This document shows, piece by piece, positions 5,395 to 48,772 of a DNA stretch of 64,000 bases. The stretch covers positions 1-64,000 of the forward strand of contig RXJP01000075.1 in the NCBI GenBank assembly GCA_003963315.1, read 5' to 3'. Under the pieces are notes generated by a model that worked only from the letters and a program-made list of their open reading frames with translations, was not told the DNA's origin and did not search any database. The position numbers were made by a program, and so were the translations under genes. The first letter of the stretch is position 1; every line of letters begins with the position of its first letter. This DNA comes from Rhodocyclaceae bacterium (GTDB lineage: Bacteria; Pseudomonadota; Gammaproteobacteria; Burkholderiales; Rhodocyclaceae).

Positions 5395-6078
5395 TCAGCT
5401 TCGCCCCAATCCGCTCAAACGCTGCCGGCTCGATTCGGGAATGGCCTCCAGCAATTGATTGACGAACAACGCGTGGGCCCGATAGGCCCGGGCCGGGTCC
5501 GGATCAATGGAAGAGACCCGAAACAGCAGTCCGTCCGGGATCTGGCCGGTCAGGCCATAACGCAGTTCCACCAGGCGCTTGTAAAACTTGCTTTCGATGG
5601 CCTTGTCGCCCACCGTGAACCAGTAGGTGACCGGTTCCTGGCGCGGCCCCATGGAAGTAAACAGGCGGCGTACCGGAATCTCGCCGAACTCCGTGGGCAG
5701 CATGCCGGGCTCGTTACTGTGGAGGGTAAAGCCCTGGGCCGGGTAGCAGACCTCCGGCTTATGCGCCTGCAACTCGTCGCGCTGGTCGCTGCCATAGGCG
5801 ATGGACACCATGACCCGATAGCCGTCGTCGTTGACGTAGGTCCGCGTCAGGATCTGACTATAGAGTTTGTCGAGCAGCTCCTTGGTCTGGGGATTGACCA
5901 CCTGGGCGAACTGCTGCGGCTCCTCCCGCCAGTTGCCGAGCCGATGAGGCACCATGGTTTCCAGCGAAATGGCCGGCCCCTTGTCCGCAGCTTTGGTATC
6001 GGGCCGCACCACGACGGCACCCAGACTGGTGGCGAACATTAATGCGGCCAATACGACCGCGGTTCTCGATGAAATCAT
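5395..6078 (-). CDS. epsI: EpsI-family protein associated with exosortase systems
   Basis: MISSRTAVVLAALMFATSLGAVVVRP signal/TM, HRLGNWREE, SQILTRTYVNDDGYRVMVSIAYGSDQRDELQAHKPEVCYPAQGF, YWFTVGDKAIESKFYKRLVELRYGLTGQIPDGLLFRVSS. ATG at 6078; the longer track ORF (to 6537) enters the neighbouring gene. Confidence 0.88.
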   Translation of the reverse strand: MISSRTAVVLAALMFATSLGAVVVRPDTKAADKGPAISLETMVPHRLGNWREEPQQFAQVVNPQTKELLDKLYSQILTRTYVNDDGYRVMVSIAYGSDQRDELQAHKPEVCYPAQGFTLHSNEPGMLPTEFGEIPVRRLFTSMGPRQEPVTYWFTVGDKAIESKFYKRLVELRYGLTGQIPDGLLFRVSSIDPDPARAYRAHALFVNQLLEAIPESSRQRLSGLGRS

Positions 6079-6143
6079 GATTGACGCTCCTGGCACGACG
6101 GGACCGGGTCCCGAGAAATATTTACAGTAGCCCGCACTCGCGG

Positions 6144-7349
6144 CTACCCATCCCGCTGGGTTCTTTCCCACGCCCGTTGCCGGTCGGAAAAGAACTTGAT
6201 ATAGAGGGGAATCTTCGACGCCGCGTAGGCTGGCACCGTCATCAAATCGGCGAAGGAGACGATGTCGCGGCCGAATCGGTACCAACCCAGGAAGACCGAC
6301 ACAATCAGCATTCCCACCACGATGCCCGCCGCCGCCAGCGGCATCCAGCCGCCCCCCGCCATCCCCGTCAAGGCCACCAACGCAACCAGACCGAAAACCG
6401 CCAGGCTCAGAAAGGCCAAGGGCGGCACGAACAAATCGATCACCATGGCCAGCAGGGGAAGATTGCCCTCCTTGACCGCCCGGAACGCGGCAAGGGGAAG
6501 CGCACCGCCGATCAAGGAAAGAGAACCATGTTCCCAACGCCGTCGCTGACCTTCGCGGCCGGCGGCGTTGGCGGGGAACCGGCTGGACACCCAGGCATCG
6601 GGACAGAACTGGGGGGCCGCTCCTGCGGCGGCCAGGTCGAGGCCTAGCTTGAAGTCCTCCACCAGAAAACCATTGGCCACGGGCACGTCATTGATCTTCT
6701 GCCAGGGATAGGCGATACCCGAACCCATGACCTGGCAGGGCAAGCCCCAGCGGAGGAAGCCCAACGGCCGTACCCGGTTTTTAACGGCCCAGGCGAAGGC
6801 GGCGATTCTCATGCCTGGCCCGCCGCCCGCCGCCTCCATCAGATAAAGCGCCTGCACGGGTCGTCCGGTTGAGGCACATTGGCAGGCAATCCGGTCTATG
6901 CACCCGTCAGCCACCCAGCAGTCGGCATCCACCACAATCACCACCTCCGGTGGCGACGCGCGCAAATGGGCGATGCCGAATTCAAGGGCATAGATTTTCC
7001 CCCGTTGCCGCGTATCGAACCTTTCGATCACCTCGGCCCCGGCCTGCCGCGCCTGCTGGGCGGTATCGTCGCCGCAGTTGTCGGCGATGACCAGCAAGCG
7101 GTCACCCTCACCCAACTGCCCCTTCACGCTGTAGAGCGTATCTACAATCCCGGCCCCTTCATCATGGGCTGGCACCAGCACGACGATTGATGGCCGCCGC
7201 GTCGCCGGGGCCTGCGGGGCCTTGCGCCGCCAGAGGCAAGCGCTAGCGACTTGAATAAACAGCACGACCACCGGAAACGCCGTGACCGCCACACACGTCC
7301 ACGCCAGGAAGCCGACCAGGACCGCCACCTCGATGCCGCCGGCGTTCAC
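6144..7349 (-). CDS. Glycosyltransferase family 2
   Basis: [69 protein letters not shown]-terminal TM helices. GTG at 7349 overlaps the upstream stop. Confidence 0.9.
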
Positions 7350-8305
7350 AGGCCGGTCCCCTGTTGCTTGAAATAATCCACGGTACGTTGCAGCCCAGTT
7401 TCCAGCGATGTCGTCGGCTGCCATGCCAACGCTGTTTGCGCCAGGGAGATGTCCGGCTTTCGGCGCAAAGGGTCGTCCTCCGGCAGCGGCCGGAAGATCA
7501 ACCGACTCGACGCCCCGACAAGTTCGATCACCTTGCGGGCAAGCTCCGCCACGGTGATTTCCCCGGGATTGCCCATGTTCACCGGTCCGGTGAAATCGTC
7601 CGCGGAATGCATCGCCCGGATCAAACCATCGACGAGATCGTCCACATAGCAGAAACTGCGGGTCTGGCTACCGTCGCCGTAAATCGTGATGTCCTCGCCG
7701 CGCAGGGCCTGGACGATGAAGTTACTCACCACACGGCCATCGTTGGGCAGCATGCGGGGGCCGTAGGTATTGAAGATCCTGACCACCTTGATGCGCAATC
7801 CGTGCTGCCGCCAATAATCGAAGAACAACGTTTCCGCACAACGCTTGCCTTCGTCGTAGCAGGCGCGGATACCCACCGGATTGACCCGACCCCAATAACC
7901 TTCGGTCTGGGGATGAATCTCGGGGTCGCCGTAAACCTCGCTGGTGGAGGCCTGCAGAATTTTTGCCTTGAGACGCTTGGCCAGGCCCAGCATGTTGATG
8001 GCACCGTGGACGCTGGTCTTGGTGGTTTGCACGGGATCATGCTGATAGTGGATGGGGCTCGCCGGGCAAGCGAGGTTGTAAATCTGGTCCACCTCCACGT
8101 AGAGGGGAAAGGTCACATCGTGGCGGACCAATTCGAAGTTGGGGCGATCCAGCAGATGGGCCACATTGCGTCTACGCCCGGTGAAAAAGTTGTCCACGCA
8201 CAACACCTCGTGGCCGGCCTCCACCAGACGCTCACACAAGTGGGAACCGAGGAAGCCGGCCCCGCCGGTAACCAAAATGCGTTTGCTGTCCGTGATCGTT
8301 TCCAT
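7346..8305 (-). CDS. UDP-glucuronate decarboxylase (UDP-xylose synthase)
   Basis: [103 protein letters not shown]. Confidence 0.94.
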
Positions 8306-8312
8306 CAAGGCC

Positions 8313-9407
8313 TCAGGCTGTGTGCTCCAACACAAAGTCGGCACAGGCGTAGCCGAGGATGCGTCGCACCGGGTACGAGGGGTTTGTCACCGCCAGGCGG
8401 CCGCATTCCGCCAGCGCTCCATGCAACAGCAGGAGCAAACCGACAAAGGCGCTATCGGCGAAACTCACCCCGCCGAGGTCGAGGCGCACCGGCCTGCCGT
8501 CAAGCGCGGCGGCGGCAAAACACTGCCGCAGGGGTAGCAGGTTGGCGGCGGACCAGGCGCCCAGCGGCCGGATCACCATCCGCCCATGCTCTTCCACGCA
8601 CCCGACCGAAGCCTCGGCCAATGCCACCGCCGATGGCCGGTGACGGCGCAAATACCAGGCCGCAGGCAGCACCCGGCGCCATAGCAATCCGATCAGCCTG
8701 CCTCCGTCAATCCAGTAGCGGCGCCACAGCGAGGGCTCCTCGCGGATGCGCCACAGCCATTCCAGCCCGCAACACTGCATCCAACGGGGCGCACGGCGCA
8801 CGGTGCCGGCGGCAAAGTTGACCACCGCGCCCAGGTGGCTGACCAGCGGTGCGCGAATGCGGTCGCGATTGCGCTCTATCCAGGCCTGGCCCTTTTTGGC
8901 CCCCAGGGCGACGACGACGAAATCGGCCCCGCTGGCGTTGATCCGATCGATGATCCCGTCGCTGCTCATGTCTTCGATCGAACCGAATCCGGGAAAATCG
9001 TGGCCGACACAGACAAGGCCTGCCGCCGCCTGGTTGAGCCGTCGGGAAGCCTGCTCGGCAGCGCCCGGCGGGCCGCCGAAGAAATACACGCTCAGGCGCC
9101 CTGGCCCCTGCCGCAAAGCTTCGAACACGTTTGAGCCGGTGACCCGCTCCTTCAAGGGAACGCCCATCAAGCGGGCGATCCAAACCAGGGGCATACCGTC
9201 GGCGGTGCTCAAATCGCTATTGATGACGGAACGGCGGAAGGCTGCATCCTCCAGGCTACCCACCAGGAAGCTCAGGTTCGGCGTGGACAGGAAGCAGCGC
9301 GTGCGGGACGCCGCGGCCTGTCGCAGGCGTGCCACCACTTCTTCCTGGGTTACCGCGTCCACGGTCAGTCCGCAGAGGCAATGCACGTCCCGGGTGAAAT
9401 CCGTCAT
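8313..9407 (-). CDS. WecB/TagA/CpsF-family glycosyltransferase with C-terminal STAS-like domain
   Basis: [83 protein letters not shown]-terminal [26 protein letters not shown] resembles STAS. Confidence 0.9.
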
Positions 9408-9413
9408 GGTCGT

Positions 9414-10577
9414 TCAATCCCGCCCGGTCTTGACCCAGTGCCGCTGTCGTCGGGTCAGAAAGCGGCCGTAGAGCGGGACCTTGCGGGCCAGATAGAGCGG
9501 AACGGACAGCAGGTCCATCACGGAGACCACCTGCCGTCCCCAACCCAGCCATGCCAACCCCACGGCGGCACCTATCATCCCCAAGGGCAGGAAGGCCCAA
9601 CCCAGCAGCCCGCCGCCGGGCAGCAGACAGGCTGCGGCAGCGACAGCCAAGGCGGCCATCGACAATAACGCCAGGGGCGGCACCGCCAGATCGAGGGCCA
9701 TCGCCACCACCCGTGCATCGCCACGGCGCAAACCCCGCCCGAGGAGACGTGGAAACTCCCCCAGGATCATCTGCAGGTGGCCGTGCTCCCATCGTGTGCG
9801 CTGGCTCTCGCCGGCGGCCCGATCCAAGGGGAAACGACTGGTCACCAGGGCGTCAGGGCAGAAGAGCGGGGGATGCCCCGCCAAGGCCAGGTCGATGCCC
9901 AACTTCATGTCTTCCACGATATTGCTGCTGGCCAAGGCCATGTGATCCGCCAGTGCCCAAGGAAAAGCCATGCCGGTGCCCATCAGTTGGCAAGGCAGCC
10001 CCAGGCGGGCATAACCCAGGGGCCGCGCCCAGTTGCGTACCCGCCAGGCGAATTCGGCCAGGCGCATGGCCAGCCCCGCACCCCGAGGCGACTGCATCAG
10101 GTAGAGCGCCTGCACAGGTCGGCCCGACGCAGCCGCCTCCCGCGCGATCCGGTCAACGGCACCGGCGTCCACCTGGCAATCGGCATCCACGATCACCACC
10201 ACATCGGGGGGGGCCAGACGCAACCGGCGCATACCGAAATCCAGGGCGTAGCCCTTGCCGCGCAGGAGCGGATCCTGACGCACCAGAACCTCTGCGCCAA
10301 AGCCGGCGGCCAAGGCCGCCGTGCCGTCACTACAGTTGTCGGCCACCACCAGCAGGCGATCCTCCCCGGTCAATTGCGGCCCCAGGGCACCAAGGCAATC
10401 CCCGATCACCGCTTCTTCGTTGTGCGCCGGGATAAGGATGGCCACCCTGGGCCGGGACCCGACAACCACGTCATGTCGTCCGGCGCCCCAGGCCGACAGC
10501 ACCTGCAACAGGAAGACCCCGCTCGGCAGCGCCAGCAGGGTGGCGGCGATCCCCAGAAATATCTCAGGAAAGGACAT
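9414..10577 (-). CDS. Glycosyltransferase family 2 (paralogue of 6144..7349)
   Basis: VAILIPAHNEEAVIGDCLGALGPQLTGEDRLLVVADNCSDGTAAL, VVVIVDADCQV, RTRWEHGHLQ. Confidence 0.9.
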   Translation of the reverse strand: MSFPEIFLGIAATLLALPSGVFLLQVLSAWGAGRHDVVVGSRPRVAILIPAHNEEAVIGDCLGALGPQLTGEDRLLVVADNCSDGTAALAAGFGAEVLVRQDPLLRGKGYALDFGMRRLRLAPPDVVVIVDADCQVDAGAVDRIAREAAASGRPVQALYLMQSPRGAGLAMRLAEFAWRVRNWARPLGYARLGLPCQLMGTGMAFPWALADHMALASSNIVEDMKLGIDLALAGHPPLFCPDALVTSRFPLDRAAGESQRTRWEHGHLQMILGEFPRLLGRGLRRGDARVVAMALDLAVPPLALLSMAALAVAAAACLLPGGGLLGWAFLPLGMIGAAVGLAWLGWGRQVVSVMDLLSVPLYLARKVPLYGRFLTRRQRHWVKTGRD

Positions 10578-11820
10578 GGGCGACGCTTCTCCCCGTGGGC
10601 GAGGAAAGGGGGAGGGATTCGCGCAACAACGCGTTCAGCTTGCCCGCTTCCTTATCGATGTCGTGGCGCTGAAGGACCCTTGCATGGGCGGCCTCCCCCA
10701 TCGCCGCCAGGATATCGGCGGGACAGGCGAGCAAAGCCGCCATCGCGTCCGCCAGTGCCGCCACATCCCCGGCTGGCACCAGCCAGCCGCATGCCCCGGG
10801 CAGCACAAGCTCGGGAATGCCCGCGACATAAGTGGTCAATACCGGCCGCCGCAGCGCCATCGCTTCCATGATGACCACCGGCAATCCCTCGGCGAAGCTG
10901 GGCAGCACCAGACCCCGGGCCTGGAGCAGTTCGTCGCGCACCTCGGCACTGCCGATCCAACCGGTGATCCGTACCTTGCCGGCCAGCCCGTATGCGGCGA
11001 TCAACGCTTCGATTTGCGCCCGCATCTCGCCATCGCCGGCCAATACCAGCTCGAAGGCCGTGCCCCGATCCGCCAGACGGCGTGCCGCCTCCAGCAGCAG
11101 CAGTTGTCCTTTCTGCTCGCACAGACGACCGACGCACACCAAGCGTGGCGCCGCGGAAGGCGCGGCGGCGGCCACCGCATGGAAGGCGGTCTCAAGTCCG
11201 CAATGCACGACCTTGATGCGGGGCCAATAGTCTCTGTCCACCCAACGGTAAAGCTGGCTGCGACCGAAATCGCTGATCGCCACCACGAAGGCGGCACGTC
11301 GTATCTTTTCCCCCAGGCCGATAAATTGGGGCTTGTCGAACTCTTCGGGCCCATGTACCGTGAAGCTGTAAGGCGGACCGCCCAGGGCGCGGGCCAGCAT
11401 CACCACCTCGGCCGGATTGGTGCCGAAATGGGCATGAACATGCTGCACTCCCAAACGACGCATCCAGCGTAGTAGAAGACAGGCCTCCGCCAGGTAAATC
11501 AGGTGGTAGGGCAAGGGGCGGTCGGCATGGCGGCCCACGCCGACCGCCAATCGGCAGGCGGCCAGGAAACGCAGGGGCGCCCCGCAGAAGGCCGCCATGG
11601 CGGCGCCGACCAGACCGGTCACGCCACCTTGCAGCAGATAGCGGGTACGCCGCCGTTCCTCGATATCCTCCGGGTCCACCAAAGGGTCGGCCCACCCCCT
11701 CAGGGCAAAGCGTTCGACGATGACCCCTTGCCGCTCCAGGGCGAGGATCTCGCGCCGGATGAAGCTGTGGCTCACCTTCGGGTATTGATTGATGAAATAG
11801 GCGACGTGCGGCGCATTCAT
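10564..11820 (-). CDS. Glycosyltransferase family 4
   Basis: VAYFINQYPKVSHSFIRREILALERQG, HAHFGTNPAEVV, RLVCVGRLCEQKGQLLLLEAARRL, LPSFAEGLPVVIMEAMALRRPVLTT. Confidence 0.92.
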   Translation of the reverse strand: MNAPHVAYFINQYPKVSHSFIRREILALERQGVIVERFALRGWADPLVDPEDIEERRRTRYLLQGGVTGLVGAAMAAFCGAPLRFLAACRLAVGVGRHADRPLPYHLIYLAEACLLLRWMRRLGVQHVHAHFGTNPAEVVMLARALGGPPYSFTVHGPEEFDKPQFIGLGEKIRRAAFVVAISDFGRSQLYRWVDRDYWPRIKVVHCGLETAFHAVAAAAPSAAPRLVCVGRLCEQKGQLLLLEAARRLADRGTAFELVLAGDGEMRAQIEALIAAYGLAGKVRITGWIGSAEVRDELLQARGLVLPSFAEGLPVVIMEAMALRRPVLTTYVAGIPELVLPGACGWLVPAGDVAALADAMAALLACPADILAAMGEAAHARVLQRHDIDKEAGKLNALLRESLPLSSPTGRSVAHVLS

Positions 11821-13949
11821 CGCATGAAATCCCTCACCGGAGCGACGATGCCGCGCTCGATCAGGGCTTCACGGCTGCCCGCGGGCTGCCAGCCGAGGAC
11901 CTCGCGGGTCTTGGCGGCATCATAGCGGGCACGGTGGCTGCGGGAGTCCCAGTCGCGGTAGCTCGGAACCCGTCGGTTCGGATGCCTGATGGCATGCTTG
12001 ACCGTCTCCTTGACCAGGTCGCCGAGAAAGACGCGCCAGGCCGGCGTGGGCTCGGCCCGCACCTGCGTACCGCTGACGCGGGAAAGCGCGTCCACATACT
12101 CACGGCCACTCAGCAGGGGGACGTCGGTCAGCAGGAAGGTTCCGCCCTCGATCCCCGCCGCATCATGGGCACGCAGCAGGGCATCGGCCACATCCTCCAC
12201 CAGGACCAATGGCAGCTTGTGGCTGCCGTCACCCCACAGCTGGACACGGGTTTCCGACTGGAACATGCCGATGCCCCAGTGGGCGGGCGGGCAACCCTTG
12301 CCGATGACGACACCGGGACGGAAGATCACCAATGGCAGGCCCCGCTCCTTTTCCATTTCCTTCAACAGGGCCTCGCAGGTGGCCTTGGAGCGGGCGTAGT
12401 GGTTGCGCGTGGCGATGCCGGGATCGAGGGGCGTATCGCCGGTGATCACGTCCCCCTCCCGCGCCGAGTAATAGGAATCGATGGTGCCGGTGTAGATGAA
12501 ACGGCGCACGCCGGCGGCCAGGGCCTGTTCGGCGATATTGCGGGTCACGGCCACGTCGTGGCGAACATAGTCGTCCCACCGCTCCCCGGCCGCCTTGGCC
12601 AAGTGGTAGACCACCTCGATGCCTGCCAGGGCCGACGCCATGAAGGCCGGATCGGCCAGGTCACCCGGTGCCAGCTCCACCGGCAACCCGGCCAAGGCCA
12701 GTTGCGCCGAGCCGACGCCACGGGTCACCACCCGCACGCCCAGGCCCTGGGCAGTCAGTCCCTGCACCAGGTATCTGCCGATAAAACCAGTGCCGCCGAT
12801 CACCAGCACCGTGGGACGTTGCAGCGGCGTCTGGACCTGCCAGCGCCGCCCCGGGTCGGATGGAAGGGACGAGACCGAGGTATCGAGCTGACTGGTAATG
12901 CGGGCGCAGATGTCGATCACGTCAGCGCCAAAGTGCCCACTCAGGCGACGGTCCAGGGTGCCTGCCAAGCCGGCATAGAAGGTGCGAATGCTGTTGGCGA
13001 TGCTGGTGCCGAAGGGATTGGCCCCCGGCCCCTTGCGCAAGGTGGCGGCGAGGGAGGAAAGCAGATTGCGGCGACCGTTGGCGGCGATCTGCCGTGCCAC
13101 GTTGCGTAAGCTGAAATAGTTGTCGAACAGCAGGGCATGGCCGGACGGCTCGTCGCGGACATAGACATCCCGCTCGAAATCGCACCGGGCGGTGGCCCCG
13201 TGGCCGCGTATCGAGATGCTGCGATCGGCATACCCCGGCTTCACCGAAAGGTTGAGGTCCACGGCGACACCATCGCAATCCCCATGCACGTGCCAGCGCC
13301 GGAACACCCGGCTGCCCCCGGGCAGGTCGATGGGCGCAAAGGCATCCACCGAGAGACGATCCGGCACGCCGGCCAGGTCGGCCATGAAGGCGACCAGATG
13401 GGGACCCAGCTCGAAGAACAGGTTTTCCGGCTGGCGCAGCATCCAGTTGTTGTAGGGGCCGAACTGGATCAAGGGCAAGGGATACAGCCAATTCACGGTG
13501 ACCTGATCGAGGGCGCCAAGAAGGCCATCCGCACGATCCCGGCGCAGCTTCTCGTAAGCCGGCAGAAAGAGGAAGTTGTGGTTCACGCCGAGCTTGAGCT
13601 TGCGCTGATCCGCCAGCGTCGCCAACTCGCGGCATTCGACGGGATCGAGGCCCATCGGCTTCTCGAGGAAGACGTGGCGTCCCGATTCAAGCAGGGCGCG
13701 CGTGGCCGAGCCATGGAGTTGCGGTGGCAGCAGCACATGGACCACCTCCACGTCGCTGGCCAACAATTGTTCCAGGGAGGTGAAGACCTGGGGAATGCCG
13801 AAGGCGGTTGCGGCTTCCCTGGCCTTCTCCTCCGCCAGATCGCAGACCGCGACAAGGCTGACTTCGGGCAGGGCTTTGAGGGCCTTGGCATGGGCCTTGA
13901 GGATGAAACCCGCGCCGAGCAGGCCCACTTTCCAGTTACGTTGACTCAT
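11817..13949 (-). CDS. Fusion: N-terminal Gfo/Idh/MocA oxidoreductase + C-terminal NAD-dependent epimerase/dehydratase (SDR)
   Basis: N-term KVGLLGAGFILKAHAKALKALPEVSLVAVCDL, EKPMGLDPVECRELA; C-term TVLVIGGTGFIGRYLVQGLTAQGLGVRVVTRG, VYHLAKAAGE, in one uninterrupted 710-aa frame. Confidence 0.92.
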   Translation of the reverse strand: MSQRNWKVGLLGAGFILKAHAKALKALPEVSLVAVCDLAEEKAREAATAFGIPQVFTSLEQLLASDVEVVHVLLPPQLHGSATRALLESGRHVFLEKPMGLDPVECRELATLADQRKLKLGVNHNFLFLPAYEKLRRDRADGLLGALDQVTVNWLYPLPLIQFGPYNNWMLRQPENLFFELGPHLVAFMADLAGVPDRLSVDAFAPIDLPGGSRVFRRWHVHGDCDGVAVDLNLSVKPGYADRSISIRGHGATARCDFERDVYVRDEPSGHALLFDNYFSLRNVARQIAANGRRNLLSSLAATLRKGPGANPFGTSIANSIRTFYAGLAGTLDRRLSGHFGADVIDICARITSQLDTSVSSLPSDPGRRWQVQTPLQRPTVLVIGGTGFIGRYLVQGLTAQGLGVRVVTRGVGSAQLALAGLPVELAPGDLADPAFMASALAGIEVVYHLAKAAGERWDDYVRHDVAVTRNIAEQALAAGVRRFIYTGTIDSYYSAREGDVITGDTPLDPGIATRNHYARSKATCEALLKEMEKERGLPLVIFRPGVVIGKGCPPAHWGIGMFQSETRVQLWGDGSHKLPLVLVEDVADALLRAHDAAGIEGGTFLLTDVPLLSGREYVDALSRVSGTQVRAEPTPAWRVFLGDLVKETVKHAIRHPNRRVPSYRDWDSRSHRARYDAAKTREVLGWQPAGSREALIERGIVAPVRDFMR

Positions 13950-17578: not shown

Positions 17579-18337
17579 CTAGTCTTCCGCGCCCAGCCGG
17601 GACAGCGCCGCCACCACCTCCGTCTGACGGAGGATGCGTGCCATGCGCAACGGCGTATACCCCTCGGACCGGAGGTCGGACCGGGCCCCTTTGTCGATCA
17701 AGGCCAGGGCCATGTCGGCATGTTCTTCGAGGATGGCCCAGAACAGGGCGCTACGGTGGAATTTGTCCGTCACGTTGGCTTCGGCCCCGCGGGCCAGCAG
17801 TTCCTTGAAGGCGTATTGATTGTTGGCCTGTATCGCCACCACCAGGGGCGTTTCCCCCAGGGCATTGGCGTCTTCCAGGCGGGCACCGGCATCGAGCAAT
17901 TGCTTCGTCACCCCATGATGACCGAACTCGATGGCCAGATGCAGGGGGGTGGACCCCATGACGTTCCGTGCATTGATGTCCGCCCCGGCCTTGAGCAGCA
18001 AACCGACGTCGTGGGAAGACCCGCGATAGGCGGCGAAGGTCAGCGGCGTATAGCCGGAGGCACCGCGCACATTGGGGTTGACGCCCTTGTCGAGCAACAT
18101 GCGGAGGGTCTGGTGTTGCCCCCCTTCCACCGCCGCGAGAACGGCGTTGTTGCCCGACCGGTCCACCGCGTTCAGATTGGCCCCCAGGCTCAGGGCCGTG
18201 TTGAAACTCGCGGCATCGCCCTGGCGTGCCGCATAGATCAGGCTCGTATTCAGGTCTTCCTGGCGAATCTCCTCTGCCTGGGACGACAGAACCCGCAAGC
18301 AGGAGAGGAGCACGAGGAGTAAAGGGAAGGGACGCAT
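17579..18337 (-). CDS. Secreted ankyrin-repeat protein
   Basis: Signal peptide MRPFPLLLVLLSCLRVLSSQAEE, then at least six ankyrin repeats (GYTPLTFAAYRGSSHDVGLLLKAGADINARNVMGSTPLHLAIEFGHHGVTKQLLDAGA). Confidence 0.88.
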   Translation of the reverse strand: MRPFPLLLVLLSCLRVLSSQAEEIRQEDLNTSLIYAARQGDAASFNTALSLGANLNAVDRSGNNAVLAAVEGGQHQTLRMLLDKGVNPNVRGASGYTPLTFAAYRGSSHDVGLLLKAGADINARNVMGSTPLHLAIEFGHHGVTKQLLDAGARLEDANALGETPLVVAIQANNQYAFKELLARGAEANVTDKFHRSALFWAILEEHADMALALIDKGARSDLRSEGYTPLRMARILRQTEVVAALSRLGAED

Positions 18338-18427
18338 GGCGACGGAAGATTCCATTGATACAAATACAATCTCCCGAGACTAGGGCGCAATCATGACAGC
18401 TTGATGAAAACCGGGGAATCCGGGCAG

Positions 18428-19837
18428 TCAATAGGCCCAGCGGCCGAACATCGCCCAGATCACCAATTTCCCCACCCCGCAGCCGACCGGGAACAGGGGC
18501 AGCAGCCACACTTCTCTGCGCGCATCGAGCAGACCAAGGCCGGACTTGATGACCAGGGCGAAGGGCACCACCATGAACATGCTGAGAACGATGCCCCATA
18601 GCGCACCGGACAGCCCGAACAGATGGAAGCCAAGGGGAATCAGCAGATACAGGGATACCAGCCGGATGCCGTTCTGCAGGGTCAGCAAGCGGGGTTGGCC
18701 CAGGGCCAGATAGCATTGCTCCGCCAGGTCGTAGCGGGTCGCCACCAGGCCCAGACCCAGGATCGACAGCATGTCGCCCGCGCCCAAGTAGCGGCTATCG
18801 TAAAGCAGTGCCACTATTGGCTTGCCGAGGACGAAGAGACTGCCGGCGCTGAACAACACCAGGGCATCCACCGGCAGGCGAAAACGGTAATACGTGTCCC
18901 GCAATCGGGCAGGTTCGCTGCGCACCACTTCGCTGAAGGCGGGGAAAGCCACGCTGCCCACCAACTTCTGCAAGGCCTGTTGGACCGCGCTGACCATCAT
19001 GAAGGCCACGCTATAGAGGCCCAGCACATCGGCGGGAACCAGCCCCCCCAGCAGCAGCCGGTCGCCGTTCATCAGCAGGAAGCCCAGGATGGAGGACAGG
19101 AAAACCCATTTCCCGAAACCGATCAATTCCGCCAGTGCCGCCCGGTCCCAGACCCAGCGGTCGGCGGGGCCGGCCAGCCACCAGTGGCTGAGCAGCATGC
19201 GGGTCAGCGCCCCGGCCACTCCGCCGGCCACCAGCGCCCAGATGGAACGGTCGTAGCCGGCCCACAGCACCATGACCAAAAGGGAAACCAGGGGGCAGGC
19301 CATTTCGATACGGGTGATCTGCCCGAGTTCGAGATTGCGTCGGGCCAGGGAAAAACGATTGGAGTCGAAGCCGCCGATCAAGGCGCTCACCGACAGTACC
19401 GCGAGCACCTGGGGCAGGCGGGGATCAGCATAGACGGTGCCCGCCGCCGTCCATTGCCAGACGGCGGCCAGATGCACGCCCAGGCTGGCCAGCAAGGCCA
19501 GGAAAAAGATCAGCACACCGCGCAGGATCTGCACCGCCCAGGCGGTATGGAGGAAGACGGGATCGCTGCCGCGCCGGCTTTGGACGATGTTCTGGCTGAT
19601 CCCCATGTCGGAAAACAGGGTGAGGCCGGTCATGAAGACGAAGGCAATGGCCATCACGCCGAACATTTCCGGCACCAACAGCCGTGTCATGACCAGGTTG
19701 CCACCCAGCCGCAAAGCCTGGATCGCCACATGGCCACCCAGCGTCCAGCTTCCCGCGCGCAGTACCCGCTGGCGCAGGGAAGGTCGGGAAGCCCTTGAAG
19801 CAGGCGACGGAAGGGGGGCCGGAATCGGAGCAGACAT
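18428..19837 (-). CDS. Lipopolysaccharide/oligosaccharide flippase (Wzx-like)
   Basis: SLRQRVLRAGSWTLGGHVAIQALRLGGNLVMTRLLVPEMFGVMAIAFVFMTGLTLFSDMGISQNIVQSRR; multi-TM. Start uncertain (19837 or 19858; ORF open to 19951). Confidence 0.9.
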   Translation of the reverse strand: MSAPIPAPLPSPASRASRPSLRQRVLRAGSWTLGGHVAIQALRLGGNLVMTRLLVPEMFGVMAIAFVFMTGLTLFSDMGISQNIVQSRRGSDPVFLHTAWAVQILRGVLIFFLALLASLGVHLAAVWQWTAAGTVYADPRLPQVLAVLSVSALIGGFDSNRFSLARRNLELGQITRIEMACPLVSLLVMVLWAGYDRSIWALVAGGVAGALTRMLLSHWWLAGPADRWVWDRAALAELIGFGKWVFLSSILGFLLMNGDRLLLGGLVPADVLGLYSVAFMMVSAVQQALQKLVGSVAFPAFSEVVRSEPARLRDTYYRFRLPVDALVLFSAGSLFVLGKPIVALLYDSRYLGAGDMLSILGLGLVATRYDLAEQCYLALGQPRLLTLQNGIRLVSLYLLIPLGFHLFGLSGALWGIVLSMFMVVPFALVIKSGLGLLDARREVWLLPLFPVGCGVGKLVIWAMFGRWAY

Positions 19838-28008: not shown

Positions 28009-28869
28009 CTAGCCCGCGTTCGGCTTGATGGCGATTGCCAGCAAACGGTCCAACAGGAAGAAGGCGAGCAAAGCGACGACCATCAGCACCATACCGGCGG
28101 CGCCATGGAGGAAACCCTGGCCGGCTTCATCGCCGAGGTGATAGGTGACCAGCACCAATACCATGACCCGGACGACATTGGCGACGAAGGCGATGGGCAG
28201 GATGCTGGCCACCATGAGGGCGTTGTGCAGCCGGCTGTCGCGTTTCTTGAGGTAGAGAAAGAGGATGCCAAGGGCCGACAGGCTGAACATGGAGTGCAAG
28301 CCGGAGCAGGCATCGGCCACCAGCAGTTGATACTGGCCGATCGCCAGCACCACGCCATGGCGGGCGACGGGATAGCCTGCCGAGTAGAGGCTGTTCTCGG
28401 CGAGGTAGGACACCCATTGCTTCAGCGGCCCGGTCACGGCATCGACCAGGATGCCCGGCAATGGAATCATGAACACTTGGTAGAGCAGCGGAAACCAGGC
28501 CACCCGGACCCCGGGCCACCCCAGGACCAGCAAACACAGGCCCAGCAGCACCGGTAATTGCGAGCCCAGCTCCAGGATGGACACATTCAACATGCGTCCA
28601 ACCGCATAGACCGCCAGTCCCAGGAGGAAACAGATCCAGCCGGCAAGGGGCGCGGGACTGGGCTGCACCGCAACGATGGCCTGGCGGCGATCCCAGAACA
28701 ACCAGATCACCACCATCAGGATCAGGGCGCCATGGGCCTGCTCATCTGTCTGCCAGATGGTGTTGAGCGCCCACCAATACGTGGGCAGGTAGAGCGCGGC
28801 CACGCCGGCCAGGAGCAGGACCCAGGGTTGCCGCCAATAGGGCAGCGTGGGCGACAGCGATGGCGTCAT
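28009..28869 (-). CDS. xrtB: Exosortase, XrtB-like
   Basis: About 8 TM; Cys motif LLVADACSGLHSMFSLSALGILFLYL, Arg motif IAFVANVVRVMVLVLVTYHLGDEAGQGFLHGAAG with His; adjacent to epsG/F/E/D and without fused EpsI domain (EpsI is separate here). Confidence 0.9.
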   Translation of the reverse strand: MTPSLSPTLPYWRQPWVLLLAGVAALYLPTYWWALNTIWQTDEQAHGALILMVVIWLFWDRRQAIVAVQPSPAPLAGWICFLLGLAVYAVGRMLNVSILELGSQLPVLLGLCLLVLGWPGVRVAWFPLLYQVFMIPLPGILVDAVTGPLKQWVSYLAENSLYSAGYPVARHGVVLAIGQYQLLVADACSGLHSMFSLSALGILFLYLKKRDSRLHNALMVASILPIAFVANVVRVMVLVLVTYHLGDEAGQGFLHGAAGMVLMVVALLAFFLLDRLLAIAIKPNAG

Positions 28870-29744
28870 GCCACTTTCACCAGGGGCGGATCATTGAAAA
28901 CGGAGCCGATGACTGCCACGCCGTTCCGGTTCAGGGACTTGACCATCTCGCCGAAAGCGCTGACCCGGGTCACGTTGTTGCGGCCCACCGCCAGCACCGC
29001 GCCCGCATGGGTGGCCACCATGGCGGCATCGGCGCCCTGGCTCATGGCCGTGGTGTCGATCAAGACCACCTCATAGCGCTTCCCAGCCTCGGTGAGGAAC
29101 TGCTGGAACTGGGGCCGGTTGAGCAATTCCAGCGGGTTGGGCGGTACCGGCCCGGAAGGCAGTACATCCAGGCTGGAAAATGCCTTGATGGGGACAATCG
29201 CGTCCTCGTCACCCCGGCCGGCCAGGAGCGAGGACAAACCACGCTTGTTGTCCAGCTTGAACAGTTCGTGCTGACGGGGCATGCGCAGGTCGGCATCCAC
29301 CAGCAAAGTACGCTCCCCCAACTGGGAAAACAGGACCGCCAGATTGGCCGCCAGATAGCTGCGCCCTTCACCCCGGGCGGCACCAACGAGCGCAAGGGTA
29401 GTCTGTTCCGCCTCCCGGTCGAACCAGCGCAAGAGCAGTTGGCTGCGGATGGAACGCAACTGCTCCACCAGATGGCTGAAGGGCTGGTAGGCCGCCACGA
29501 CTTCTTCACTGACGGGACGGCCACCAGCAAGGGGCAGATAGGTATAGCTGAACTGATGGGACAAAGCGAAGCGGATATCTTCGTCGGTCAGCAGGCCGAG
29601 CCGGATCGCCGCATCGCCGAAGCGCAGGTTTTCCTCTTTCTGTAACTTGAGGATGCGTTCCGCCTCTTCAAGGCTGAGCATCTCCGCATCGATCAGGATG
29701 GCACCAATGGAACGTTGCGGGTTCTGCAAGGTCGTTTGCATCAT
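28866..29744 (-). CDS. epsG: EpsG-like chain-length determinant tyrosine kinase / ParA-like ATPase with MshEN-like N-terminal repeat
   Basis: ALVGAARGEGRSYLAANLAVLFSQLGERTLLVDADLRMPRQHELF, LDVLPSGPVPPNPLELL, VVLIDTTAMSQGADA; N-term IGAILIDAEMLSLEEAERILKLQKEENLRFGDAAIRLGLLTDEDIRFALSHQ. Confidence 0.88.
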   Translation of the reverse strand: MMQTTLQNPQRSIGAILIDAEMLSLEEAERILKLQKEENLRFGDAAIRLGLLTDEDIRFALSHQFSYTYLPLAGGRPVSEEVVAAYQPFSHLVEQLRSIRSQLLLRWFDREAEQTTLALVGAARGEGRSYLAANLAVLFSQLGERTLLVDADLRMPRQHELFKLDNKRGLSSLLAGRGDEDAIVPIKAFSSLDVLPSGPVPPNPLELLNRPQFQQFLTEAGKRYEVVLIDTTAMSQGADAAMVATHAGAVLAVGRNNVTRVSAFGEMVKSLNRNGVAVIGSVFNDPPLVKVA

Positions 29745-31171
29745 GCGTTCTCCGGCAGCATGCGCCAGGGGCGTTTTCGGATGTTGCGCAGGAAGGACCA
29801 GGCGATCGCCAGGCGCTCCTTCACGGTGTATTGCTTCGGCTCCGGCGTCAAGGCGCCGAGCAAGGGCACCAAATCGGCCACCATCAGGTCGCTCGCATTG
29901 CGGACGCGGCGATCCATGAGTTCCACGGCCATCGCCAATACGATGCCGAGCATCAGGCCACCGCCCAGGGAGGCCATGATGCTCTTCATCAATACGGGCC
30001 GGGACGGCTCCGTGGGAGGGACCGCGGGGGACAACACGCTGATGTTGGTCTGCTCCGACTTGCTTTCCAGGCTCAATTGGCTCATCCGCTGGGAAACGGC
30101 TTCATAAGCGTGCTGAGCAGTTTCCACATCCTTGACCAGGACGGCGATCTCGTCGTGCTGGGAGCGTAACGCCAATACCTTCTTTTTCTGCTCCTCGATC
30201 AGGGCACGCAGCTCGGACTCCTTCTGCACCGTGACCCGGTTGGCCGTGGCCGCGGTTCCCGATATGCGCCGGATTTCTTCGCTCAACTGCTGCTTGAGGC
30301 CGGCAATCTGGGCTTCCAGTTGCAAGCGTTGAGGATGATTCCTGCCCACGTTGCTGCTGATCTCGTCAAGCTTCGTCTCAGCGCGGGAAATGTCAGACTT
30401 CAAACCCTGGATCAGGGGATTTTGCGCCACATCGGGGGACAATTCGCTACCGCTGTTCTTTTCCCGCGTCGCTGCATCCACTTTCTGCCCCTGGATTTCC
30501 GAGAGTTGCTGGGTCAGGGCATTGAGCCGGGCAGTCTCCTGGTCCACCCGCTCGTCTGTGGCCACGATGCCGTTCTCCTGCTGATAGCTGGAAAGCCGTT
30601 TCTGCGCCTTTTCCAATGTGGTACGCAGACTGGTCAGACGTTCGTCGAACCAGGCTGCATATTGCCGCGCGGGTTCGACCCGGAGATCGATGGTGGTGTC
30701 GATGTAGGCCTGGACGAAGGCGTTGGCGATGGCGGCGGCGGATTGGGGATCCCGCGCCGCATAGGAAAGACTGATGATGTTGTTGCCCTTGAACGGCTTT
30801 ACCACCAGACTCTTTTGTAAAAGGGCGCCGTAGTAATAGTCGAAGGGCGTTTTACCCTCCGTTTCCTGACGCCAGGACTGCACCACCGCCGGGCTCTGGT
30901 CGAAATGCATCAGCTTCACCACCCTGGCGGCCACGCGGTCGCTCTGGATGATTTCGGTCTGCGTGGACATATAGGCGGGCGATGCCATGGCTGGCTGGGC
31001 GATGCCGGCAATCGGATCGGTCTTGACATCCACCACGACGGACACCGAAGCGGTATAAAGCTTCGGCATCAACAGCGTGACGACCGTACCGACCGCCGCG
31101 GTAACGAGGAAGACGATCAATACCAGCTTGCGCCGGGCCAACAGGACAAGGAAGAACTGCTGAGGCGTCAT
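29741..31171 (-). CDS. epsF: EpsF-like chain length determinant (Wzz/PCP family)
   Basis: N-term TM LVLIVFLVTAAVGTVVTLLMPKLYTASVSVVVD, long coiled coil, C-term TM PVLMKSIMASLGGGLMLGIVLAMAVELMDRRVR. Confidence 0.92.
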   Translation of the reverse strand: MTPQQFFLVLLARRKLVLIVFLVTAAVGTVVTLLMPKLYTASVSVVVDVKTDPIAGIAQPAMASPAYMSTQTEIIQSDRVAARVVKLMHFDQSPAVVQSWRQETEGKTPFDYYYGALLQKSLVVKPFKGNNIISLSYAARDPQSAAAIANAFVQAYIDTTIDLRVEPARQYAAWFDERLTSLRTTLEKAQKRLSSYQQENGIVATDERVDQETARLNALTQQLSEIQGQKVDAATREKNSGSELSPDVAQNPLIQGLKSDISRAETKLDEISSNVGRNHPQRLQLEAQIAGLKQQLSEEIRRISGTAATANRVTVQKESELRALIEEQKKKVLALRSQHDEIAVLVKDVETAQHAYEAVSQRMSQLSLESKSEQTNISVLSPAVPPTEPSRPVLMKSIMASLGGGLMLGIVLAMAVELMDRRVRNASDLMVADLVPLLGALTPEPKQYTVKERLAIAWSFLRNIRKRPWRMLPENA

Positions 31172-31173
31172 GA

Positions 31174-31980
31174 TCAGAGCAGGCTTTCGCGCACGTAGAT
31201 GACATCGTCCGAATTCACCGGATCGTCCAGATCGGGCTCCAATTTCTCCATCTTTCCATCCTTGTTGCGTCGATAAAGACGGACACCCCGCAAGGTGCCG
31301 CGCAGCGTCGCCCCGCCACCGAGGACCAGGGCCTGGCGCACGGTCATCTGCCGTTCGATGCGGAAAGCGCCCGGGTGCTGCACTTCGCCGTAGACATACA
31401 CCAGCGGCGCGCGATGAACATAGATGATGTCGCCGCCACGTACCTGCACGTCCTGTTCCGGCTGGTTGTCCAGGAACATGCTGGCCACATCCAGCTCGAG
31501 GCGATAGGGTTTGCCGTCACGCTGGCCGATCAGGATCAATACGTCGCTGCCACCGGGATTGATACCTCCCGCCAACGCGAGCAGGTCGCTGATCTTGCTG
31601 TTGGCCTGCTCAAGGGGGAAACGCCCGGGGCGCCCCACCTGGCCCAGTACCGCGACCTGATTGCCTCGCACCTGCTGGACCAGGATATTGACCTGGGGTT
31701 GCTGGACGAATCCTCCGTCACGGAGCATCTGGGCGATCTTTTGTTCGGCGGCGCCGATGGTCAAGCCGCCGAGGGGCACGGCCCCGACCAGGGGATAGGT
31801 GATCATCCCGGTCTCGGAAACGCGGGTATCCACCGTCAGATCGGGATTCTGGAAAACGGTGATCCTGACAATGTCGCCCGCCCCCAGGACATATTCACTT
31901 TCGTCGGCGTTGGCGCCACCGGCCAGAAACAGGAAACACAGGAGCGACGCCAGGAGTCGCGCAGCAATACGCACTAGCAT
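31174..31980 (-). CDS. epsE: EpsE-like polysaccharide export outer membrane protein (Wza family)
   Basis: YVLGAGDIVRITVFQNPDLTVDTRVSETGMITYPLVGAVPLGGLTIGAAEQKIAQML, VYVYGEVQHPGAFRIERQMTVRQALVLGGG. Confidence 0.93.
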   Translation of the reverse strand: MLVRIAARLLASLLCFLFLAGGANADESEYVLGAGDIVRITVFQNPDLTVDTRVSETGMITYPLVGAVPLGGLTIGAAEQKIAQMLRDGGFVQQPQVNILVQQVRGNQVAVLGQVGRPGRFPLEQANSKISDLLALAGGINPGGSDVLILIGQRDGKPYRLELDVASMFLDNQPEQDVQVRGGDIIYVHRAPLVYVYGEVQHPGAFRIERQMTVRQALVLGGGATLRGTLRGVRLYRRNKDGKMEKLEPDLDDPVNSDDVIYVRESLL

Positions 31981-32045
31981 TCTGCAAGCCTTTCAGGTTG
32001 CGGGGATGTCGCCCCGAGTGGGCGAGGGAAGAATGAGCGCAACCG

Positions 32046-32999
32046 TTACTTGAGCCCGGCAACGGCTTTATCGACGACGGCCGGCGTGGCCACGGATTCC
32101 GCCTGGGCGGTGGTCGGTTGCGTGGGGGCGGCGTTCTCCGTCTTGGCGGTGGATTCACCTGCCCCCGTCTTGGCAAAGTCGCCCAGATATTCGACGGTGG
32201 CCTTTTCCCGTAGCTGCTTCATTTCCTTGGTCACCATTTCCATCCGGCGCTGATTCGTCAGGTATTGCTCCACCATGGGAATCGCGGACCTCTCATCAAT
32301 TGGTGCGGCCTTTGACGCCGCCAATTGCACCACCAACACGCCCTCGGGCGTGGGAATCACACCGATTTCCCCGTCTTTCATCTGCTGGAAGCGGGGAAGC
32401 AATTCCATGGGCAATTGCTCGGCCGCCTTGGTGGTGTTGTTGACGGCTACCGGTATTTTCTGTTCCTTCAGCCAATCGGCAACCTCCGCCAGCGACTTCG
32501 CCTTGGCCATGCGTTCCTTGAGCTTGGGCAACAGGTCGGCGCCCCCCTTGGCGGAGAGTTCGTTGATATTAAACACGCGGCGGTCGGAGAAAAGCTCCGG
32601 ATGCTTGCCATAGAAATCGGCGACCTCGCTGGCAGTGGGCTTCGTCAGTCCGCTGGTCAATTGTTCAAGGTAGGCGCGGGAAAGGATTTCCCGTTTGGCT
32701 GACTCTATCGCCATCATGACCTTGGGATCACGGTCGATCTTCTTCTCCACGGCTTGCTCCACCATCAGCTCCTGCTCAACGAGCTTTTCAAGGACCTGCT
32801 TGCTGGCAACCTTCGCCTGCTCGGGGGTCAGGTTCGGCGTCCTCGACAAGGCGTTGTTGATCTGATGAACCGATATTTCGTTCTTATTGACCTTGGCCGC
32901 GACCTGCGTGGCAGCCTTGTGCTCGCCACAGGCCGCGAGGATCAGGGGCATGGAAACGAGGATCAGCAGACTTTTAGAGTGACGTTGAATGAATGACAT
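32046..32999 (-). CDS. epsD: EpsD-like peptidyl-prolyl cis-trans isomerase / SurA-like lipoprotein
   Basis: Lipobox LILAACGEHK; AAKVNKNEISVHQINNALSR, LEKLVEQELMVEQAVEKK, REILSRAYLEQL, position next to epsE. Confidence 0.9.
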   Translation of the reverse strand: MSFIQRHSKSLLILVSMPLILAACGEHKAATQVAAKVNKNEISVHQINNALSRTPNLTPEQAKVASKQVLEKLVEQELMVEQAVEKKIDRDPKVMMAIESAKREILSRAYLEQLTSGLTKPTASEVADFYGKHPELFSDRRVFNINELSAKGGADLLPKLKERMAKAKSLAEVADWLKEQKIPVAVNNTTKAAEQLPMELLPRFQQMKDGEIGVIPTPEGVLVVQLAASKAAPIDERSAIPMVEQYLTNQRRMEMVTKEMKQLREKATVEYLGDFAKTGAGESTAKTENAAPTQPTTAQAESVATPAVVDKAVAGLK

Positions 33000-33182
33000 G
33001 GGATGGATATCCGAGAGTGGGGTCATATGGCAATACACGGGTAAGCCAGGACGTGGCGTCCGGGACGCGCGGACGAATGAAAATGATCGGCAGCATCGGA
33101 CGGCCAGAATAGCGATTATTTATTACAGTCCAGTTGCATCCCCACGCTGTCGACCGATCGATTCGTTCGGTGCCGCCCCAAT

Positions 33183-37265: not shown

Positions 37266-37973
37266 TCAGGCGTTGCGGCTGCGGCGCCGGGCAATGACGC
37301 CGATCAGACCAAGACCAGCCATCAGCATGGTGTAGCTTTCGGGCTCGGGTACCGCGGCCACCGAGGCGAACGGCGTGTAGCCGGGGCTGCCGATTTCGTT
37401 CAGACTGGAAAGATACGACCCCTTGCCATCGCCCACGGCAGACAAGGTCCACAGGCTGGCGTTATTGGCGCCAACGGCCGCCAGGCTGCCGGGGATGCCG
37501 CTTACCCCGGTCGTTCTCGGACCAGCCACGGACCCGGTGCCCTGGTCGTTGTAGGTCAGGCGATCCACCAGGGTACCGGTGCCATCGTAGACATTGACCT
37601 CGTCGGAACGTCCCAGGTTATTGAGATTTCCGCCAAGGACCTTGACGCTGGCGCTGAGGTTCCAGTTGGCACGGAAGGCAGCGGCGGTCTGATCGGTGAA
37701 GATCACCGACTCGCCGGCCGCCACCGTACCGAAGCCGGACAGGTTCTCCGAACCCGCAGTACGGGAATTGTCATCGAAGCTCCAGCCGGTGAAGTCAACG
37801 GTGGTAGTCCCCAGGTTGGTGAGTTCGATGAACTCGCCAATGGAACCAGTGCCGTTTCCGTTGTACATCCACTCGGTGATGCGCACATTGGCGGTGGCGG
37901 CGTGGGCGGTACCGAGCATGGCGCCCGACAGCAGCGCTGCGGCCAACAGGCGGGACAGTGGGGTGGCTTTCAT
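37266..37973 (-). CDS. PEP-CTERM protein with lamin-tail-like domain
   Basis: VRITEWMYNGNGTGSIGEFIELTNLGTTTVDFTGWSFDDNSR (lamin-tail pattern); C-term AVPEPESYTMLMAGLGLIGVIARRRSRNA. Confidence 0.93.
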   Translation of the reverse strand: MKATPLSRLLAAALLSGAMLGTAHAATANVRITEWMYNGNGTGSIGEFIELTNLGTTTVDFTGWSFDDNSRTAGSENLSGFGTVAAGESVIFTDQTAAAFRANWNLSASVKVLGGNLNNLGRSDEVNVYDGTGTLVDRLTYNDQGTGSVAGPRTTGVSGIPGSLAAVGANNASLWTLSAVGDGKGSYLSSLNEIGSPGYTPFASVAAVPEPESYTMLMAGLGLIGVIARRRSRNA

Positions 37974-37988
37974 CTTGGTGGCTCCTGA

Positions 37989-39419: not shown

Positions 39420-39635
39420 GGGTCCGTATCTCCAGGGGGCCTGCACCAGGCAGGCTGACTTCGACATCGGCCCAGCGCCGATAGTCTTTCAACGACCTGT
39501 CGATACTAGCGACTCGAGATTACCCAAAGACGTCTCCTCTCGGACCGAGAATAGTCTGTTCGGACTATCCACATGCCGCCGTCAGCCCAGCCCCAAGGCA
39601 ATGACCCAACGCTATCGAGGAATAAGCCCAATACA

Positions 39636-39666
39636 AAAAAAGGGGCCAGAATTTTCCGGCCCCTTT
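39636..39666 (-). terminator. Rho-independent terminator
   Basis: Minus strand aaaggggcc-ggaaaattct-ggccccttttttttg, 20 nt past the stop of the gene at 39686. Confidence 0.85.
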
Positions 39667-39685
39667 GTGACACATAGCGAACAGC

Positions 39686-41236: not shown

Positions 41237-41623
41237 TGTTGTGACTCCCAATAGATTTTTTTAAGGAAATGGCACGTGGTCATTTGGTTCTAAACATCGC
41301 CTCTGCGATCCGACCTGAGACGAAAAAGCGAAGCACAGATACGGGAATCACTTTAGGAACTCTTTGTGGCTCGGCGATGACCCTGATACGTTTTTTAATA
41401 GTCTTTTCTTGCTATATCAGCAATTTACCGACAGCATTCCGTCAGAAATCCTCGCCGTGGTGGCAACGATGAAGTATCGGTCAAAGTCAATTGTCGACAC
41501 TCATTGTCCTGCCAAGCCGACGTGGGTAGTCCGAAGACGTCACATCTTTGACGCAACCTTTAATTAAACTCGAATAACCCCATTGTCATTACGACGCAAA
41601 CAAAAATCGACAGACCTCTCCTA

Positions 41624-44692: not shown

Positions 44693-44832
44693 CGTCGGCC
44701 GATTCTAGGCAAACGATATGAAAATTCCGTGACTGGACAAACCCGCGACGAATGCCGGCCCCCTGGCCCTGTAATAATTCCACCATATTGGTTCGCTAGG
44801 CTTGGAGGTCACTATTGGCCCCCCGGTGCCTC

Positions 44833-46230
44833 ATGCTTTCCACATTCCACCGCCAGACGAGCATTTTCCGCTCCCGGCTGAGCGTCATTTCATTGATCGG
44901 CATCACCTTCGACCCCGTGGTCGTGGTGGCGACGCTGTTCGCTTCCGCGCTGTACGCCGAAGACAATATCGGCGCCCCCCATGTGGTCCTGGCGCTGATC
45001 GCCTTTTCCCTGACCTTCCCAGGCACATCCCGCCTGCAGCAGGGCAACTGGGAGTTAGCCCGCGAGGTGTTGGGCGGCTGGCTTTCCATCACCTTGATGC
45101 TGCTGTTCTTCGGCTACGCCACGGGCTACCTGCGCCAATTTGAGCGCGATACCGTGCTGACCTGGTTCTTCCTGGCGCCGACGGTGCTGATCATCGGCAA
45201 CATGCTACTTCGCCTCGGTCTCACCAGGGCGTTGAGCACCCATGGCAACCAGCGCCTGGCCGTCATCGCCGGCATGAACGAAATCGGTCAGCGCCTGGCC
45301 CAACAGTTCCGGGAAAACCACTACCTGGGCACCCGCTTGGTGGGTTTCTTCGACGACCGAGATCGCTTGCGCCTCGGCGCCCTGGGGCAAAATCAGACCT
45401 TGCTGGGCAGGATCGACACCCTTGCCGCCTTCGTCAAGGACAATCGCATCGACGCCATCTACGTCACGTTGCCCATGGCAACCCAGCCCCGCATCTTGTC
45501 CCTGCTCGACGCCCTCAAGGACACCACCGCATCGATCTATTTCGCACCTGACATCTTCGTCACCGACCTGATCCAGGGACGTCTGGAGAACCTGGCGGGC
45601 ATGCCGGTGGTTGCCGTTTGCGAATCCCCCTTCACCGGGGTGGACGGCCTGATCAAGCGCAGCAGCGACATCGTGCTTTCCCTGTTGATCCTGATACTGA
45701 TCGCCCCCCTGCTGGCGGCCATCGCCCTCGGCGTGAAGTTCAGTTCCCCGGGGCCCGTTCTTTTCAAACAGCGCCGCTACGGCGTGGATGGGCAGGAAAT
45801 CGTCGTTTTCAAGTTCCGCTCGATGACCGTGCTCGAGGACGGTAACACCATCGCCCAGGCCACGCGCAACGACAAGCGCATCACCCCCTTCGGCGCCTTC
45901 CTGCGCAGGACATCCCTGGATGAGCTACCCCAATTCTTCAATGTCCTGCAGGGGCGCATGAGCATCGTCGGTCCGCGTCCCCACGCCATCGCCCACAATG
46001 AGCTGTACCGCAAGCTGGTCAAGGGCTATATGGTCAGGCACAAGGTCAAACCGGGCATCACCGGCCTGGCGCAAATCAACGGCTATCGCGGCGAGACCGA
46101 CACGGTGGACAAGATGGAAGCCCGCATCGACTACGACCTGCAATACCTGCGCAATTGGTCCCTGGGCCTGGATCTGTGGATCATCCTGAAGACGGCCCTG
46201 GTCGTGATCCATGACCGCCATGCCTATTGA
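44833..46230 (+). CDS. epsB: Undecaprenyl-phosphate sugar phosphotransferase (EpsB/WcaJ-like initiating transferase)
   Basis: LIKRSSDIVLSLLILILIAPLLAAIALGVKFSSPGPVLFKQRRYGVDGQEIVVFKFRSM, FLRRTSLDELPQFFNVLQGRMSIVGPRPHA, KVKPGITGLAQINGYRGET. Confidence 0.95.
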   Translation: MLSTFHRQTSIFRSRLSVISLIGITFDPVVVVATLFASALYAEDNIGAPHVVLALIAFSLTFPGTSRLQQGNWELAREVLGGWLSITLMLLFFGYATGYLRQFERDTVLTWFFLAPTVLIIGNMLLRLGLTRALSTHGNQRLAVIAGMNEIGQRLAQQFRENHYLGTRLVGFFDDRDRLRLGALGQNQTLLGRIDTLAAFVKDNRIDAIYVTLPMATQPRILSLLDALKDTTASIYFAPDIFVTDLIQGRLENLAGMPVVAVCESPFTGVDGLIKRSSDIVLSLLILILIAPLLAAIALGVKFSSPGPVLFKQRRYGVDGQEIVVFKFRSMTVLEDGNTIAQATRNDKRITPFGAFLRRTSLDELPQFFNVLQGRMSIVGPRPHAIAHNELYRKLVKGYMVRHKVKPGITGLAQINGYRGETDTVDKMEARIDYDLQYLRNWSLGLDLWIILKTALVVIHDRHAY

Positions 46231-48749: not shown

Positions 48750-48772
48750 CCCGGCCGCGCCAAGGTTATCCC

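Follow-up and report, generated by a model that had tools for sequence, protein, structure and literature searches.

We found that a gene in the window (the whole 64,000-nucleotide stretch of Rhodocyclaceae DNA analysed here) encodes a glycosyltransferase of the WecG/TagA/CpsF family (GT26) with a STAS domain at its C-terminus, and that this WecG-STAS fusion is real and not a product of chance. Our reading of the whole, to which we give about even chances of being right, is that the GT26 enzyme, part of an exosortase-B type exopolysaccharide (EPS) pathway, carries its STAS domain for docking, with phospho-switching optional at most.

Domain architecture and predicted fold

The fusion gene lies where the earlier note had placed it (8313-9407), on the minus strand (Table 1). 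Profile searches identified both halves of its product. Residues 64-231 matched Glyco_tran_WecG (PF03808) with 166 bits against a cut-off of 27.4 (E 7.4e-49, Pfam), and TIGR00696 gave 105 bits against a cut-off of 69 (NCBIfam). The earlier note had also read a STAS pattern in a C-terminal peptide, which corresponds to residues 277-362 of the translation, and had proposed searching it with PF01740 and PF13466. This reading held: STAS_2 (PF13466) matched residues 283-351 with 39.1 bits against a cut-off of 29.2 (E 8.7e-10, Pfam), and the fold is that of RsbV (see below), while the older STAS model, PF01740, scored 18 bits, below its cut-off of 22.6. When the fused C-termini of 53 family members were scanned singly (E <= 0.01), PF13466 matched 52/53 and PF01740 46/53, and a profile of these C-termini matched TM1442, SpoIIAA, RsbV, and MlaB in the PDB with E values from 4e-14 to 5e-8.

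Table 1. Features of the fusion gene and of the EPS locus in the window
Feature	Position	Strand	Basis
WecG/TagA/CpsF (GT26) glycosyltransferase with C-terminal STAS domain, 364 aa	8313..9407	-	ORF, Pfam, model, fold
GT26 core and start of appendage, residues 11-232	8712..9377	-	Pfam, alignment; T42, D70, R88, R220, R230 conserved
Appendage helix, residues 227-256 (helix 227-255 in model)	8640..8729	-	predicted structure
STAS domain, residues 266-364	8316..8612	-	Pfam, predicted structure, fold, profile comparison
Ser319 codon, aligned with SpoIIAA Ser58 / SypA Ser56 phospho-acceptor	8451..8453	-	sequence alignment
EpsI type B, downstream	5395-6537	-	profile match
GT2, downstream	6144-7424	-	profile match
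NAD-dependent epimerase, downstream	7346-8344	-	profile match
GT2, upstream	9414-10577	-	profile match
GT4, upstream	10564-11820	-	profile match
Oxidoreductase-epimerase, upstream	11817-13949	-	profile match
Exosortase B (XrtB), EpsG, EpsF, EpsE, EpsD: exosortase-B type EPS core, same locus	28009..33038	-	profile matches
Initiating sugar-phosphate transferase (Bac_transf), ~35 kb from fusion gene	44815..46230	+	profile match

We modelled the fusion protein with AlphaFold2 from an alignment of 72 relatives (mean pLDDT 96.6, pTM 0.93). Foldseek comparison with the PDB matched the first half of the model to TagA (TM 0.90 by target length) and its last ~97 residues to RsbV from the RsbV/RsbW complex (6m36; TM 0.85 by target length, rmsd 1.8-2.0 Å), followed by SpoIIAA, TM1442, RsfB, and MlaB. 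The fold match on which the earlier note had let its STAS claim depend was thus obtained. Because the pTM is high, the STAS domain is predicted to be held at a fixed position on the enzyme, through a fixed interface.

The residues aligned with TagA T37, D65, R83, R214, and R224 are all kept in the window protein; of the counterparts of catalytic Asp65 and Thr37 in TagA, D70 is present in 72/72 alignment rows and T42 in 53/53 fusions. In TagA, the active site is completed by the region equivalent to the appendage helix, which also attaches to the membrane, and Arg221, a proposed stabiliser of the UDP leaving group, is required for activity (PMC6493773). The residue aligned with Arg221 is Leu227 in the window protein (codon 8727-8729, minus strand). 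Leu occupies this column in 49/49 proteobacterial fusions, and Arg occupies it in 19/19 STAS-less relatives and 4/4 acidobacterial fusions; a later sample gave Leu in 12/12 clade members (two of which repeat earlier sequences) and Arg in 12/12 readable STAS-less genes, so that the separation of Leu from Arg was perfect in two successive samples. Leu is a property of the clade rather than of the STAS domain, because it is also found in two loci described below, L072, which has no STAS domain, and L071, in which the STAS part is cut off. Membership of GT26 by profile stands despite Leu227, and the catalytic detail may differ.

Genomic setting and distribution

The earlier note had placed the gene in an exopolysaccharide setting, and the locus proved to be of the exosortase-B type, with XrtB and EpsG, EpsF, EpsE, and EpsD. 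It also holds rhamnose and mannose nucleotide-sugar genes, several GT2 and GT4 glycosyltransferases, a flippase, a Wzy-like ligase, and PEP-CTERM proteins. Judging from its family and this locus, the GT26 enzyme probably adds a sugar to an undecaprenyl-PP-linked EPS intermediate. Other features of the window are an ankyrin-repeat frame inside the EPS locus (17579-18355, minus strand), with an overlapping frame without a family match (17751-18716); a 982-residue protein adjoining exosortase B (25033-27981, plus strand), with no Pfam or NCBIfam match; a series of PEP-CTERM proteins (37266-41251, minus strand), two of which carry a lamin-tail and a phytase-like esterase domain, respectively; and, near the initiating sugar transferase, a LapD/MoxY-type GGDEF-EAL protein (48653-50713, plus strand), with another GGDEF-EAL protein at 51205-53097.

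The survey of WecG homologues proposed in the earlier note was carried out on 53 aligned members with an intact fusion. A scan of 84,980 species genomes returned 80 loci, of which 46 had an intact fusion and were aligned; the window protein and six members from whole-genome searches complete the set. Forty-nine members are proteobacterial (Beta-, Gamma-, and Alphaproteobacteria) and four, more distant, are acidobacterial, and nearly all fusion loci hold genes related to the EPS glycosyltransferase or sugar-nucleotide genes of the window. Herminiimonas fonticola (L052) and a Methylobacter (L085) are culturable, non-pathogenic carriers. An order-level sample had a clade member in 14/399 genomes, and all 14 extend into the STAS domain (one fusion is frameshifted or misassembled and one has an in-frame TAG); in a class-wide sample of 369 genomes, the window's own genome alone passed 1e-40. 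On contig C128, that genome has another copy of the fusion (48% identical), accompanied by an acyltransferase and ManC.

The maximum-likelihood tree of the enzyme part contains two fusion clades, one of the 49 proteobacterial and one of the 4 acidobacterial members, and a constraint to a single fusion clade was not rejected (AU p 0.395). L072, which belongs to the proteobacterial clade, no longer has a STAS domain, and in L071 (Methylobacter luteus) the WecG part is split from the STAS part by an apparent insertion element (~6715-7560) whose inverted ends, at about 6718 and 7555, are near-identical; the STAS domain is therefore not indispensable everywhere. Separate STAS genes in EPS loci were considered as an unfused form and rejected: the only extra STAS frame by an apparent clade member was that of L071, apparently one gene split by the insertion element, and the other candidate, in L078, is an unrelated 275-aa protein. 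Across members, median pairwise identity is 25% in the STAS part versus 58% in the GT part, and Gly283 is invariant. Such faster divergence would be expected of a docking surface with a varying partner, but also of a weakly constrained relic.

The phospho-site and candidate partners

The window protein has the motif D318-S319-A320, preceded by the aromatic Phe316. The earlier note had correctly seen Ala in place of the second Ser of DSSG (A320), but had taken that position for the phospho-acceptor; in SpoIIAA, RsbV, and SypA it is the first Ser that accepts the phosphate, and this Ser is present here as S319. In the PDB sequences of 1til and 1tid, the SpoIIAA chain has D-A-S-G in place of wild-type D-S-S-G, and we read this Ala as the S58A mutant. 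The phospho-acceptor of SpoIIAA is Ser58 (PMC3517971); that of SypA is Ser56, with a separate Ser57 next to it, and an acidic residue of the beta2-alpha1 loop (SypA Asp22) contacts the kinase, whose reaction the second Ser helps (PMC10120452). The window protein has neither this helper Ser nor the acidic kinase-contact residue, the counterpart of SypA Asp22 being S286 when positions are counted from a shared Gly. The doubt that the earlier note had cast on classical phospho-regulation therefore remains, on these two grounds and not on the original one.

Across the 53 members, the acceptor column holds Ser in 29, Pro in 11, Ala in 4, Gly in 4, Asn in 3, Gln in 1, and Leu in 1, with at least 12 changes along the tree. 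An acidic residue at 286 and the acceptor Ser occur together in only 7/53 members, and Ser or Thr at both 319 and 320 in only 2/53. On the window protein, the anti-sigma factor antagonist equivalogs scored below their cut-offs (TIGR00377, 18.2 bits versus 53.45; TIGR02886, 15 versus 114.75). Phosphorylation of Ser319 could modulate docking in the window protein, but the family as a whole cannot work in this way. There is still room for phospho-control, since Asp318 is retained by most members and the acceptor Ser by slightly more than half. Classical partner switching may thus operate in the window protein, but not as a family-wide rule.

No STAS kinase or SpoIIE-type phosphatase was found among the EPS-locus genes scanned. 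The window's genome has seven STAS_2 frames, the two fusions included, and its kinase and phosphatase matches all lie on contigs other than that of the EPS locus, none of them tied to it. A STAS-binding kinase or phosphatase that acts on the window protein is hypothetical: the search for RsbW-like kinases suggested by the earlier note yielded candidates, but no link between them and the EPS locus, and the distribution of their relatives does not follow that of the fusion. On contig C106, a 177-residue HATPase_c_2 protein is encoded immediately ahead of a receiver-PAS-SpoIIE protein (L136 3486-5659), with no STAS_2 match on that contig, and contig C54 encodes a 160-residue HATPase_c_2 protein. 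Relatives of the C106 kinase occur in 4/6 fusion genomes versus 42/95 others, which is uninformative as co-occurrence. One fusion genome in which the acceptor Ser is kept (G001, 99% complete) has neither a SpoIIE-type phosphatase nor a relative of the C106 kinase. Two other searches were set aside: a HATPase_c_2 search of 22 genomes, as a kinase test, returned mostly histidine-kinase-sized frames and was hence unsuitable, and matches to the receiver-HATPase protein of contig C24 were dominated by receiver domains. Elsewhere in the genome, a chemotaxis cluster with CheR, CheD, CheB, and CheZ on contig C149 (L134 7541-17401) also contains a 181-residue STAS-domain frame adjoining a SpoIIE-HATPase protein, a set that we read as a partner-switching module inside a chemotaxis locus; on contig C77, a STAS gene adjoins CheA and an MCP.

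Role of the STAS domain and known systems

STAS domains serve as docking modules for MlaF (via MlaB) and in SulP transporters. In the fusion, a complete RsbV-like STAS domain follows the appendage, which would bind the membrane. It is predicted to be fixed on an enzyme that probably adds its sugar within the exosortase-B type pathway, and would most likely act as a docking surface that either holds the enzyme to a partner or relays the partner's state to it. This is supported by the identification of both domains by profile and fold in a fixed two-domain model, by the retention of the STAS domain in all 14 carriers of the order, and by flanks that lie in EPS-type loci; the greater variability of the STAS part, its loss in L072, its separation in L071, and the room left for phospho-control argue against it. 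The counts at the acceptor and its helper positions, together with the missing phosphatase of G001, favour docking over phospho-switching.

Partner switching in cis, with a HATPase_c_2-type serine kinase phosphorylating Ser319 and a SpoIIE-type phosphatase reversing this, would turn the glycosyltransferase on and off, comparable to the action of SypE on SypA in Vibrio fischeri biofilm control. The presence of Ser319, Asp318, and Phe316, the nearest fold (an RsbV solved with its kinase), and two short HATPase_c_2 proteins, one just upstream of a SpoIIE protein on a contig without a STAS_2 match, would all fit. However, residues other than Ser (Pro, Gly, Ala, Asn, Gln, or Leu) occupy the acceptor column in 24/53 members, the window protein lacks the acid and the helper Ser, the EPS-locus genes scanned include no such kinase or phosphatase, G001 has no SpoIIE-type phosphatase, and C106-kinase relatives do not follow the fusion; we consider this mechanism rather unlikely. 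A broader proposal, that the STAS domain is a built-in post-translational on/off input and that stand-alone STAS polysaccharide regulators of the SypA type bind such an early glycosyltransferase in trans, seems very unlikely to us.

The fixed interface implied by the high pTM would also suit a purely structural cap, packed intramolecularly on the appendage helix, that lends stability to the active monomer or to the membrane-bound state and offsets the altered appendage of a clade without the TagA Arg221 equivalent. The Leu found in all proteobacterial fusions and later clade members, where STAS-less relatives have Arg, points the same way; yet the acidobacterial fusions keep Arg, L072 has Leu without a STAS domain, and STAS sequence conservation is poor, so we consider such a cap quite unlikely. 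Rapid divergence and the loss in L072 might even suggest a relic with little function, but the domain is open and recognisable in 52/53 members from several bacterial classes, with Gly283 invariant, and we find this highly improbable. Should the domain control the enzyme, many environmental bacteria would regulate how much EPS they make at the enzyme as well as by transcription, and the fusion would offer a testable guess at the target of SypA. Even as a docking site alone, the domain would point to a partner that takes part in exosortase-type EPS assembly.

In the literature searched, with subscription journals largely outside it, we found no paper on WecG or WecB with a STAS domain, which does not establish novelty. 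According to the description in a review (PMC8256260), Anabaena all4160 is a glycosyltransferase with an N-terminal STAS domain that serves the heterocyst envelope polysaccharide; on that description, and leaving the glycosyltransferase family aside, it likewise combines the two parts in a single chain that serves a polysaccharide, but with the STAS domain at the opposite end. A STAS-glycosyltransferase fusion as such is thus already published, and the WecG-STAS arrangement is a different variant. TagA/TarA of Thermoanaerobacter italicus (GT26; 5wb4, 7n41; PMC6493773) shares the enzyme fold, the five residues named above, and the C-terminal appendage with the fusion, but has no STAS domain and has Arg221 in place of Leu227. 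The anti-sigma factor antagonists RsbV (6m36) and SpoIIAA (1til) have the STAS fold and the phospho-acceptor Ser in common with it, whereas in the fusion the STAS domain sits on an enzyme, both the acidic kinase-contact residue and the second Ser are absent, and no sigma factor or kinase gene lies nearby. SypA and SypE of V. fischeri similarly tie a STAS protein to polysaccharide-dependent biofilm; SypA is a stand-alone regulator with an unknown target (PMC4517449, PMC10120452), whereas the STAS domain of the fusion is joined to a glycosyltransferase. To MlaB, the STAS subunit of the Mla transporter (6xgy, 6xbd), we liken the STAS domain of the fusion as a stable docking partner of an enzyme, with the difference that MlaB is a separate subunit that binds an ABC ATPase and the STAS domain of the fusion belongs to the same chain as its enzyme.
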